A stretch of DNA of 64,000 nt from NCBI RefSeq assembly GCF_002355635.1, contig NZ_AP017558.1:1984001-2048000 (forward strand), given 5' to 3'. The notes under the pieces were generated by a model that was not told the origin of the DNA, did no database searches, and worked only from the letters and a program-made list of their open reading frames with translations. A program made the position numbers and the translations under genes. Shown piece by piece: positions 39,451 through 45,499 of this stretch. Origin of the DNA: Halopenitus persicus. GTDB lineage: Archaea > Halobacteriota > Halobacteria > Halobacteriales > Haloferacaceae. Numbering within the stretch: the first letter of the stretch is position 1; each line of letters opens with the position of its first letter.

Positions 39451-40011
39451 TCATCCGCGGTCGGACGCCTCGACGTCGACGACGCCACGCAGCCGATCCG
39501 GCCCCTCGACCGGCTCGATCCGGAACCCGAGGTCGGCGTAGAACTCCCGCAGATCGCTTTCGAAGGCGGCCGTCAGTCGGTCGACGCCACGTGTCGCGGC
39601 CAGGTCGATCGCGGCCCGCACGAGCGCGGACCCGATCCCGGCCTCGCGTCGGTGGCGCGTGACGGCCACGGCGTCGATGTGAAGTCGACGCTCGTTCGCC
39701 AGATGACGGTCAGCGTCCGCCACGTGGCTGACCTCGTCGTCACGATATTCAAGCGAGAGCGCGCCGACGACGGTTCGCGTCCGCTCGCCCTCGGCCGCCG
39801 GGTCGGTCTCCGCCAGGAGCACGCGTCCGTCGTCGATCCCGGACCGAAGAATCTCGGCGTCGACCTCGAGCAGGGCGCCCTCGAGGACGCGGATCACGTC
39901 GACCGCGTCGTCCGCCCCGGCGCGGCGGACCCCGATCCCTGCGGGCAGATCGTTCGGTGGGGACCACGAGCCGCCGTCGGTGACGAGTCGCTCGCTGGTG
40001 GCGTGGGTCAC
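39451..40011 (-). CDS. GNAT-family N-acetyltransferase
   Basis: Protein of 186 residues with a GNAT domain. The acetyl-CoA binding region reads IDAVAVTRHRREAGIGSALVRAAI (motif A, with the R-x-x-G-I-G-S loop), and FYADLGFRIEP is motif B. The start is taken as the GTG at 40011, which overlaps the TGA of the SAMP2-redoxin gene by 4 nt (GTGA) and implies translational coupling. The first 25 residues are not part of the domain. Substrate unknown. Pairing with a ubiquitin-like fusion gene is notable, since lysine acetylation and sampylation could compete. Confidence 0.82.
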   Translation of the reverse strand: MTHATSERLVTDGGSWSPPNDLPAGIGVRRAGADDAVDVIRVLEGALLEVDAEILRSGIDDGRVLLAETDPAAEGERTRTVVGALSLEYRDDEVSHVADADRHLANERRLHIDAVAVTRHRREAGIGSALVRAAIDLAATRGVDRLTAAFESDLREFYADLGFRIEPVEGPDRLRGVVDVEASDRG

Positions 40012-40697
40012 GCGAACTTCGCCGCCTCCTCGAGGATCGCGTCGATCCCGGGTCGGTCGCCGGGGTGGGATCCGGTGTACCGCCAGAGGACCTCGGGCTC
40101 CCGGCGCAGGTCGACGAGGACGACCTCCGGCATCCGGCCGATCAGGTCGACCCGCCGGCCGATCGGCCCGAACCGACGCGACTGGCCGTACTGGCTCGCG
40201 ATCTCGGTCTCCGGATCCGCGATGAAGGGGTATGGAACGTCGTACTCGTCGACCCATTCGGCGGCCCGATCGCGGTTCTCCGGCAGGATCGACACCGCCT
40301 CGACGCCGGCCTCGCGGAGGGCATCGTGGTTCGAGACGACGGTCTTGACCTGGGTGCGACAGTTCCCGCAGAGGTGATCGCGGTGAAACAGCAGGACCGC
40401 GAGGTCCGACTCGAGGCCGGACAGGACGAACGGGTCCGGTCCCGAACCGACGTTCGCGCCCTCGAAGTCGACCGTCTCGGGCGCGTGGACGCGCCCGGAT
40501 CCGCCCTTGATGAGCCGGAGGACCGTCACGCGGTCGGCGTCGACGGCCCGGTCCTCGGGGACCGGCGACCCCTCGACGAGCGCGGCGGCCTCCTGGGGGC
40601 TGTAGCCCACCGACCGGATCAGGTCGGCGTAGGTGTCCTCGGGCTCGCAGGAGAGCTCGCGGGTCCCCTCGCCGACGACCTCGACGGTGACGTGCAT
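40008..40697 (-). CDS. SAMP2-like ubiquitin-fold modifier fused to a peroxiredoxin-like domain
   Basis: Protein of 229 residues. Residues 1-66 match the whole of Haloferax SAMP2 in length and pattern (HVTVEVVGE, TYADLIRSVG, PVPEDRAVDADRV, VLRLIKGG) and end in the Gly65-Gly66 that is normally the free C-terminus used for conjugation and sulfur transfer. The frame continues without stop through a short linker into a thioredoxin-fold AhpC/TSA-like domain (about 85-229) with a CGNC pair at 110-113, as in peroxiredoxin-like-2 proteins. No internal ATG or GTG lies near the junction. It is coupled to the GNAT gene. An rfc small subunit gene lies 1.6 kb away; from memory SAMP2 and rfcA are neighbours in Haloferax. 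Confidence 0.85.
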   Translation of the reverse strand: MHVTVEVVGEGTRELSCEPEDTYADLIRSVGYSPQEAAALVEGSPVPEDRAVDADRVTVLRLIKGGSGRVHAPETVDFEGANVGSGPDPFVLSGLESDLAVLLFHRDHLCGNCRTQVKTVVSNHDALREAGVEAVSILPENRDRAAEWVDEYDVPYPFIADPETEIASQYGQSRRFGPIGRRVDLIGRMPEVVLVDLRREPEVLWRYTGSHPGDRPGIDAILEEAAKFA

Positions 40698-42113: not shown

Positions 42114-42253
42114 ATTCAGTGCCGTCCCGGCGGTACGTATAAACGATCGACCAGGTCGTGACGGAACGATCGGTCAGGCTGCGACGACCGATCGACGGCC
42201 AGCCGAGCCGGCGTCTCGGTTCGTTTATGACCCTGCCGACGGTGGTCTCTCGT

Positions 42254-45200
42254 ATGAGCGAGCCCGAGGAGCCGACGGACGCGGAGGCGGGGACGTCGGA
42301 CGTGGACGCCGAGGCGGAGACGTCGGCCGCCGCGACCGCGACCGGCCGGGAGATCTGGATCGAGAAGTATCGACCGCAGACGCTTGCGGACATCCACGGC
42401 CACGAGGACATCGTCGAGCGGCTCGAGAGCTACATCGAGCAGGACGACCTGCCGCACCTGCTCTTCTCGGGGCCGGCCGGCGTCGGGAAGTGCGTTACCG
42501 GAGATACGCCGGTGCTGACGGGCAGTGGCGTCCGTCGGATCGAGGACGTCGTCGGCGACGTCGAGGGGTTCGCTGCGCCGGGAAGCGATCTCATGGTCGC
42601 CACGCTGACGGCGGAAAACGATCTCGAGTACGTCTCGCCCTCGGACGTGTTCGCGAAGGACGCGGACGAGCTCGTGACGATCCGGACGCGGGACGGTGGC
42701 GAGTTTCGGGTGACGCCGGAGCACAAGCTCCGCGTCATCACCGAGGAGGGCTTCGAGTGGGTCGAGGCGGCGTCGCTGTCGGCCGACGACCGGATCGCAC
42801 GCCCCCGATCGGTTCCAGCACCCGATCCCACGGCACCTCCGGAACCCTCGACAGCCGATACCTCGACGCCAGCCGACTCCCCGACGTCGAATGGATCGCC
42901 CTCGTCTCCGTCCTCGTCTTCATCGCCAACTCCAGCCCCGTCGCTTCGGTGGTTCGACTCGATGGATCCGGACCGGACCGAAGTGAGGCTCTCGGCCGAT
43001 GCACTCGGAGATCACGCGGCGACGATCGGGACCGAGATCGACGAGCCGGTTCCGCTATCCCGGCTCCACGAGAGCGACCTCGAACCGGGGCAGTGGATCC
43101 CCGGGGTCGAGGAGATCGAGTACGTCGCGGCGAACGGCCGTCGGGCCCGCCCCATCACGCCGCCGACCACGATGACGCCGATACTTGCACGATTCGTCGG
43201 ACTCGCCATCAGCGAGGCGAGCATCGATAACGGGCAGATCAAGTTCTACAACACGGACGAGGGACTTCTCGACGCGTTCGAAGCCGCGGCGAAGGCGGTC
43301 TTCGACGTCGAAACGGTCCGCGGTCGCCAGCACGACGTCCCGTTCGTCCGGCTCGGGTCGAAAACGCTCACCCACTACCTGGAGTCGACCGTCGACGTCT
43401 TCGCGAGCGCAGCCGGCGGGTCGGGGATCGGGTCCGCGATCGTCTCCGCGGATCGGGACTCCCGAGCGGCGTTCCTGCGGGCGGTCTTCGATGCGGAAGC
43501 ACACGTGGATACGGGCGGCACGATCGAACTCATCCAGCGAAACCCGGACCACATCACCCTCGTATCCTACCTCCTCGCGACGTTCGGGATCCCGAGCCGG
43601 CGAGCGACGATGGAGAAAGCCGCCACGAACGGAACGGGGATCGAACGAACCTACCACGCGATATACGTCTCCGGGTCACGGGTCCTCCAGCGGTTCGAGT
43701 CGACGATCGGATTCTCGATCGACGAGAAGGCGGACCGGCTCGCCGATCACGCCGAAAAGACGTCGAACCCGAACCACGACACGATGCCGCGCCAGGCGGT
43801 GCTCCGGAAGCTCTGTGACCGTCTCGACCTCCGGGTGACGGACCACCTTCCGAGATCGCTGGATCCGGACACCCCCGGACGGGAACGCTACTGTGCGGCG
43901 TTGAACGACGTGATCGACGCGGCGACGGAGCGGATCGAGAACTGTCAACGCGCGCTCGAACGGCTCGACCGGATGGAGCCGCTGCTCGACGCCACGACGA
44001 GCCTGCCGGCGGCGTGGGTCGAGTCACGCGGGGCGCTGGCGCCAATCGAGACGCGTACGGAGATCGCCGAGTCGACCGGCGTGCGTTCCGATCGGCTGCT
44101 CGAGTGCAGCGACGGCCGCAGGACGCCGTATTCCTCACGAGCGCTCTCGATGCTCGAGGAACTCGATCGGCCGATCGAGGTCACCGCCGATCAGCCGATC
44201 GAGATCGGTGCCGATCAGCCAGGTGGTTCGACGGCCGACCGGCTCGACGGAACGATGCTGCAAACGGTCAAACTGGAACTTCGGACGTGTCGCGACCTGA
44301 TCGGCGCCACCGACGTCGAGATCACTGAGGGGCTCGAGTTCGGCCCGTCGGATCTGCGAAACCTGCTCGAAGCCGACGGACACGCCGTCCGCGTCGTGAC
44401 GCGGTTCGAAACCGTCGCCAACCGACTTCGGGAGGTCGCGCTCGACCGGCTGACGCTCGAGACGATCGAGTTGCTCGAGGAGGCCGCACGGATCGCGAAC
44501 GCCGACCTGTACTACGACCGCGTCGAGTCGGTCGAACGGACCGACGCCGACGAGCGGGTCTACGATCTGACGGTTCCCGGGACGCGAAACTACGTCGCCG
44601 GAAACGTTCCCACGGTGATGCACAACACCACCTCGGCAACGGCGATCGCCCGCGAGATCTACGGCGACGACTGGCGCGGGAACTTCCTCGAGCTCAACGC
44701 CTCCGACCAGCGCGGGATCGACGTGGTCCGGGACCGGATCAAGAACTTCGCGCGGTCGTCGTTCGGGGGGTACGAGCACCGGATCATATTTCTTGATGAG
44801 GCCGACTCGTTGACGTCTGACGCCCAGTCAGCGCTTCGGCGGACGATGGAGCAGTTCTCGGACAACACCCGGTTCATCCTCTCGTGTAACTACTCCTCGA
44901 AGATCATCGACCCGATCCAGTCGCGGTGTGCCGTCTTCCGGTTCTCGCCGCTGTCGGACGAGGCGATCGCGAGCCAGGTTCGGGAGATCGCCGCCGCAGA
45001 GGGGATCGAGGTGACCGAGGCGGGCGTCGACGCGCTCGTGTACGCGGCCAACGGCGACATGCGTCGCGCGATCAACTCCCTGCAGGCGGCCGCGACGACC
45101 GGCGAGGTCGTCGACGAACAGGCCGTCTACGCGATCACCGCGACCGCCAGACCGGAGGAGATCGAGTCGATGGTCACGGACGCGCTCTCGGGCGATTTCT

Positions 45201-45499
45201 CGAGGGCGCGCGCGACCCTGGACACGCTGCTCACAGAGACCGGAATGGCCGGCGGCGACGTGATCGACCAGCTCCACCGGTCGGTCTGGGAATTCGACCT
45301 CTCCGAGCGCGAGGCGGTCCGGCTGATGGAGCGGATCGGCCAGGCCGACTACCGGATCACCGAGGGCGCCAACGAGCAGGTGCAACTGGAGGCGTTGCTG
45401 GCCGCGCTCTCGCTGCCCGAGGAAGACGACGGGACGGCGACGGCGGGGGAGAGGGAACCGAAACCGGAACGCCGGGACGGACACGACGAGGGGGCCTGA
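42254..45499 (+). CDS. rfcS: Replication factor C small subunit, intein-interrupted
   Basis: Clamp-loader small subunit whose gene encodes 1081 residues, of which 712 are an intein; the spliced product would be 369 residues. The N-extein has an acidic head of about 40 residues, then [14 protein letters not shown] and Walker A GPAGVGK, where the intein sits before TTSA. The C-extein continues with [16 protein letters not shown], Walker [11 protein letters not shown], the arginine-finger region [16 protein letters not shown] and the collar domain. The ATG at 42254 is preferred because TTTATG lies about 30 nt upstream; longer frames run into the 5' region. The metallophosphoesterase gene follows by 9 nt. 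Confidence 0.95.
42491..44626 (+). other. Intein with LAGLIDADG-type endonuclease in RFC Walker A
   Basis: The 712-residue intein begins with Cys1 (CVTGDTPVL) and ends with HN before Thr (VPTVMHN/T). Block B is present as VTPEHKL with its Thr-x-x-His, and block F as [22 protein letters not shown] endonuclease occupies the middle: motif 1 [10 protein letters not shown] (about 235-244) and motif 2 [10 protein letters not shown] (about 327-337). Both keep an acidic residue but differ from the LAGLIDADG consensus. Two further insertions enlarge it: a Ser/Pro/Thr-rich linker near 110-155 and a 230-residue region after the endonuclease. Splicing residues look intact. Confidence 0.93.

Follow-up and report, generated by a model that had tools for sequence, protein, structure and literature searches.

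Eukaryotes release ubiquitin from its precursors by a protease cut. Sampylation is usually described with modifiers that end at Gly-Gly. In Haloferax, SAMP2 acts in tRNA thiolation and isopeptide conjugation via its Gly-Gly tail (PMC4048286). Fusions of ubiquitin-like proteins (Ubl) that depend on a JAMM protease are known for MoaD-MoaE, and HvJAMM1 cleaved a linear SAMP1-MoaE fusion precisely after Gly-Gly in vitro (PMC4443979). In vivo, both the cleavage and the function of this fusion required HvJAMM1 (PMC4443979). CsJAMM processes SAMP precursors (PMC6043591). In addition, archaeal Urm1 also joins the peroxiredoxin Ahp1 in yeast (PMC7016264, PMC12645042). We found no HvJAMM1 cleavage of a linear SAMP2 fusion in the accessible literature. 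No report of a natural SAMP2 fusion, or of a redox partner of this type, was found in the mostly open-access journal literature searched.

We analyzed a 64,000-nucleotide stretch of Halopenitus persicus DNA, referred to as the window. A single ORF at 40008..40697 on the minus strand, stop codon included, encodes a 229-residue fusion of SAMP2 with a peroxiredoxin-like domain and is conserved in three Halopenitus. The earlier note had read residues 1-66 (40500..40697, minus) as a SAMP2-like ubiquitin-fold domain, and this was confirmed. The region matched the NCBIfam SAMP2 model NF041919 with 102.1 bits, above the equivalog cut-off of 70, and Pfam SAMP2 PF21965 with 96.9 bits. The solved Haloferax SAMP2 (PDB 2L32/4HRS) aligned with it through LIKGG. 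Gly65-Gly66 (40500..40505, minus) was encoded by GGC GGA and followed by TCC GGG CGC. The encoded protein lacked the very C-terminal Gly-Gly that is typical of SAMP2, since 163 residues followed in frame. A C-terminal Gly-Gly would hold for a cut, mature form only. The second part had been put at 160 residues with a CGNC pair; the CGNC domain was indeed present, and the length was corrected to 163 residues including an 11-residue linker.

The linker, residues 67-77 (SGRVHAPETVD; 40467..40499, minus), varied among species and lineages and measured 9-55 aa over all fusions. The AlphaFold model of the fusion had a mean pLDDT of 86.6 and a pTM of 0.65, with both domains confident. Residues 64-74 were the only run with pLDDT below 50, which suggested that the Gly-Gly, the probable cleavage site, sits in a flexible segment. 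The reading frame contained no stop codon at the junction. In addition, no in-frame ATG, GTG or TTG occurred between codons 57 and 135 of the window gene, so that internal initiation at the junction is implausible. The earlier note was right on both points.

The same full-length fusion was found in H. persicus and H. malekzadehii assemblies, in proteins 94% and 91% identical to the window protein. The frame was open in these three independent Halopenitus assemblies and in other genera (g20, g18 and g37). This ruled out a sequencing or frameshift error and meant that the fusion was not an artefact. The genome of the window, which is 99.5% complete, was also searched for an additional, free SAMP2 gene, and none was found. 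SAMP2 was present in 388 of the 394 genomes of the order, nearly always in one copy, and the other fusion-bearing genomes listed had one SAMP2 each. Since the sole SAMP2 gene is fused, active SAMP2 is possible only if a protease separates the two parts.

The second domain, residues 78-229 (40011..40466, minus), belonged to the AhpC/TSA-Redoxin (peroxiredoxin/ResA-like) group by profile, fold and PDB sequence matches. AhpC-TSA (PF00578) matched residues 88-173 with 54.5 bits, and the Redoxin profile matched residues 78-221. Foldseek matched the domain to many peroxiredoxins, with E values down to 1e-9. By its modelled fold, of the AhpC-TSA type, the domain is a peroxiredoxin. Its best PDB sequence matches were ResA thiol-disulfide oxidoreductases, followed by peroxiredoxins. 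It carried Cys110-Gly-Asn-Cys113 (40359..40370, minus) in place of the standard PxxxT/SxxC peroxidatic motif. This CxxC motif was invariant in a sample of 12 sequences and variable within g37, where it was reduced to SxxC or CxxS in 7 of 16 fusions (L095, L097, L109, L111, L112 and L114; L091). The loss of one Cys meant that the pair was dispensable there and that a strictly CxxC-dependent role was not general.

Across haloarchaea, SAMP2 and the redox gene were often neighbours. In the 171 family and 394 order genomes searched, their arrangements formed a series, from genes about 50-130 bases apart (e.g. L043, L046, L053-L057) through overlapping genes (L024, L045) to fused ones. The 22 fused loci comprised three in Halopenitus, one each in genera g20 and g18, and 17 in g37, a genus of another family (f17) in which one of the 17 was disrupted near a contig end. 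An apparent fusion in another genome (G140, L104; 72% complete) was dropped because its SAMP2 part was out of frame before Gly-Gly. On the tree of the redox domain, the fused state needed four changes, and well-supported branches forced all four. By this tree, fusion of SAMP2 with the redox gene arose at least three times. Most simply, the fusion would have been gained three times (Halopenitus with g20; g18; g37) and apparently lost once within g37, in G082. This loss could instead be an assembly error. The sister rows of Halopenitus and g20 were adjacent unfused pairs, and the relatives of g18 had unlinked copies.

Conservation was then compared around the Gly-Gly. LRLIKGG was invariant in all 22 fusions, and both sequence and length varied after it. 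In g37, mean pairwise identity was 91.4% for SAMP2, 71.6% for the redox domain and 49% for the linker, which was 17-55 aa long. SAMP2 was also 91.4% conserved in g46, an unfused genus of the same family as g37. This meant that fusion had not relaxed the conservation of SAMP2. The dN/dS values among the three Halopenitus were based on few changes and were left out of the argument. Among 121 unfused SAMP2 loci, a non-random sample, the Gly-Gly was terminal in 84, and 37 (about 30%) had 1-17 extra residues. Because of these residues beyond Gly-Gly, tailed unfused SAMP2 would also need C-terminal trimming.

The genome encodes the SAMP2-related machinery. UbaA (E1) was identified by NF047750 (515.7 bits, cut-off 450), and a desampylase by NF041370 (151.7 bits, cut-off 130) with the JAMM motif E + HSH-x7-SxxD. 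An NcsA/TtuA-family tRNA thiolase was also present; a match to TIGR00269, the NcsA/TtuA-type tRNA thiolase family, lay at 1738-2067 of the window (plus), about 38 kb from the fusion. JAMM proteins were found in all 22 genomes searched for them, 21 of which were fusion-bearing. Three marks expected of a JAMM-processed Ubl precursor, namely a Ubl with Gly-Gly, further in-frame sequence and a JAMM protease in the genome, occurred together here.

The GNAT acetyltransferase gene (39451..40011, minus) is coupled to the fusion, as had been proposed, and its GTG start overlaps the fusion stop (GTGA). In most of the haloarchaeal loci sampled, a GNAT gene came next after SAMP2 or after SAMP2 plus the redox gene. 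The association of SAMP2 with GNAT (arCOG00535-GNAT) was noted earlier (PMC2948915), and the link is real and old. The proposal that an upstream HxlR regulator belongs to a stress-linked unit was rejected, as the distance to the HxlR gene is about 1.7 kb greater in the other two Halopenitus. Elsewhere in the window, at 42158-45499 (plus), an ORF resembled, from its translation, the replication factor C small subunit with an intein-like insert.

Other Gly-Gly modifiers of the genome were also extended. Two short-tailed proteins were found (L075:1480-1770 and L076:1474-1773, minus), a SAMP1-type protein with the tail VSGG+SRIADR and a second SAMP1-family protein with SVYGG+CVTTDPRR. A second Ubl fusion (L074:1156-1776, minus; C1 near 1347264-1347524 of the genome; also L217 and L224) joined a SAMP1-family protein ending in PPVAGG, through an in-frame variable linker, to a 90-residue protein with a Gly-Gly end of its own. 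This fusion to an operon neighbour was present in all three Halopenitus. In six other genomes with both genes, the two were adjacent and separate, lying in different frames in five and in the same frame with an intervening stop in one (g37). The partner may be arCOG06308, a Gly-Gly-ended TBP-like family reported beside a MoaD-like Ubl (PMC2948915). One Met in the linker, just before the partner, was present in the window genome and absent in both relatives, so an internal start is possible in that genome's PPVAGG fusion. A fourth Ubl-like protein ended in Cys-Cys. Since every Gly-Gly Ubl found in the genome was extended, no Gly-Gly modifier found there ends at Gly-Gly as encoded.

Of the two alternatives that the earlier note had left side by side, comparison gave good support to processing like a ubiquitin precursor and spoke against permanent wiring of the two domains. 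By analogy with the action of HvJAMM1 on SAMP1-MoaE, it is likely that the gene encodes a polyprotein-like precursor that the JAMM desampylase cleaves behind Gly66. In favour of this reading, the genome has no other SAMP2, the Gly-Gly is invariant, UbaA, the desampylase and the thiolase are retained, and many unfused SAMP2 have tails as well. In the proposed mechanism, a desampylase of the HvJAMM1 type would cut after Gly66. The cut would yield a mature 66-residue SAMP2, its Gly-Gly now exposed as UbaA requires. The other product would be a peroxiredoxin/ResA-like CxxC protein with Ser67 as its first residue. One round of translation would then supply the SAMP2 and Prx products of the old SAMP2-Prx-GNAT operon in equal amounts. 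The released SAMP2 would serve the same two processes as in Haloferax, tRNA thiolation and sampylation. Because SAMP2 chemistry uses a free Gly-Gly tail, fused SAMP2 cannot perform it. If cleavage is inefficient, some of the protein could act in its fused form.

Three other explanations were weighed. SAMP2 might have become a permanent docking or regulatory domain of the redox enzyme, no longer a free modifier or sulfur carrier. A genome without a free SAMP2 gene does not guarantee free SAMP2, and both domains were predicted to fold well in one chain. However, the Gly-Gly, needed by a free tail only, was invariant in every fusion, the conservation of SAMP2 was not relaxed relative to unfused g46, and UbaA, the desampylase and the NcsA-family thiolase were retained. 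Moreover, SAMP2 still ended in GGAV at the unfused g37 locus (G082, L116). We consider permanent fusion very unlikely. The precursor might otherwise be regulated, with redox state controlling cleavage and the peroxiredoxin-like domain gating free SAMP2 under oxidant stress. The samp2 and ubaA mutants of Hfx. volcanii are oxidant-sensitive, hypochlorite raises SAMP2 conjugates (PMC5587910), and conjugation of Urm1 to the peroxiredoxin Ahp1 is redox-dependent (PMC7016264). Such gating would nevertheless have to work without one Cys of the pair in nearly half of the g37 fusions, and it is not needed in general, as the genes are separate in most haloarchaea. It therefore appeared quite unlikely, if somewhat less so than permanent fusion. 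Finally, the redox domain could be made mostly separately via internal translation initiation, the fused frame being incidental. Neighbouring genes do overlap in related species (L024, L045), but the window gene lacks start codons between codons 57 and 135, and the C-terminus of SAMP2 would stay blocked. This explanation was hardly credible.

Following the precursor reading, the putative redox domain might share in SAMP2 chemistry, whether released or still attached. Its CxxC might reduce a UbaA-SAMP2 intermediate or take sulfur from thiocarboxylated SAMP2. SAMP2 and the domain would then form a dedicated archaeal equivalent of the Urm1-peroxiredoxin pair, with precursor cleavage providing the two in a one-to-one ratio. 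We offer this as a speculative idea that is rather unlikely to be correct. In the precursor reading, the genus Halopenitus and independent others would have to excise their only SAMP2 from a fusion. If the desampylase makes the cut, it would be a maturation enzyme and not a deconjugase alone. At the gene level, the fusion links a modifier of the Urm1 type to a peroxiredoxin-like protein, a kind of protein that is an Urm1 target in yeast, and it is directly testable in Haloferax.

Compared with known systems, the locus was closest in family to Haloferax volcanii SAMP2 (HVO_0202; 2L32, 4HRS), with which it shares the curated family, the LRLIKGG tail and the type of GNAT neighbour. However, H. 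volcanii SAMP2 ends at Gly-Gly, whereas the Halopenitus Gly-Gly is internal with a redox domain after it. Deinococcus MoaD-MoaE and the engineered SAMP1-MoaE (PMC4443979) resemble the fusion in that a beta-grasp sulfur carrier is joined via Gly-Gly to a partner from its own pathway and the same genome encodes a JAMM protease. In MoaD-MoaE, the modifier is MoaD instead of SAMP2, and the partner is MoaE instead of a peroxiredoxin-like protein; the Haloferax SAMP1-MoaE fusion is artificial, whereas that of Halopenitus is natural. Eukaryotic ubiquitin-ribosomal protein and Fubi-S30 fusions, and the Caldiarchaeum ubiquitin/SAMP precursors (PMC6043591), have the same order of an N-terminal modifier, Gly-Gly and then an unrelated extension or protein. 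These precursors need a processing protease, as the Halopenitus fusion would by analogy. Unlike in these ubiquitin-type precursors, the Halopenitus modifier is an Urm1/ThiS-type sulfur carrier and its partner is a redox protein. The pair formed by Urm1 and peroxiredoxin Ahp1 (PMC7016264, PMC12645042) likewise combines an Urm1-like modifier with a thiol-dependent enzyme of the AhpC/TSA type. In that case, the bond is a post-translational isopeptide bond, whereas SAMP2 and the redox domain are joined by a gene-encoded peptide bond.
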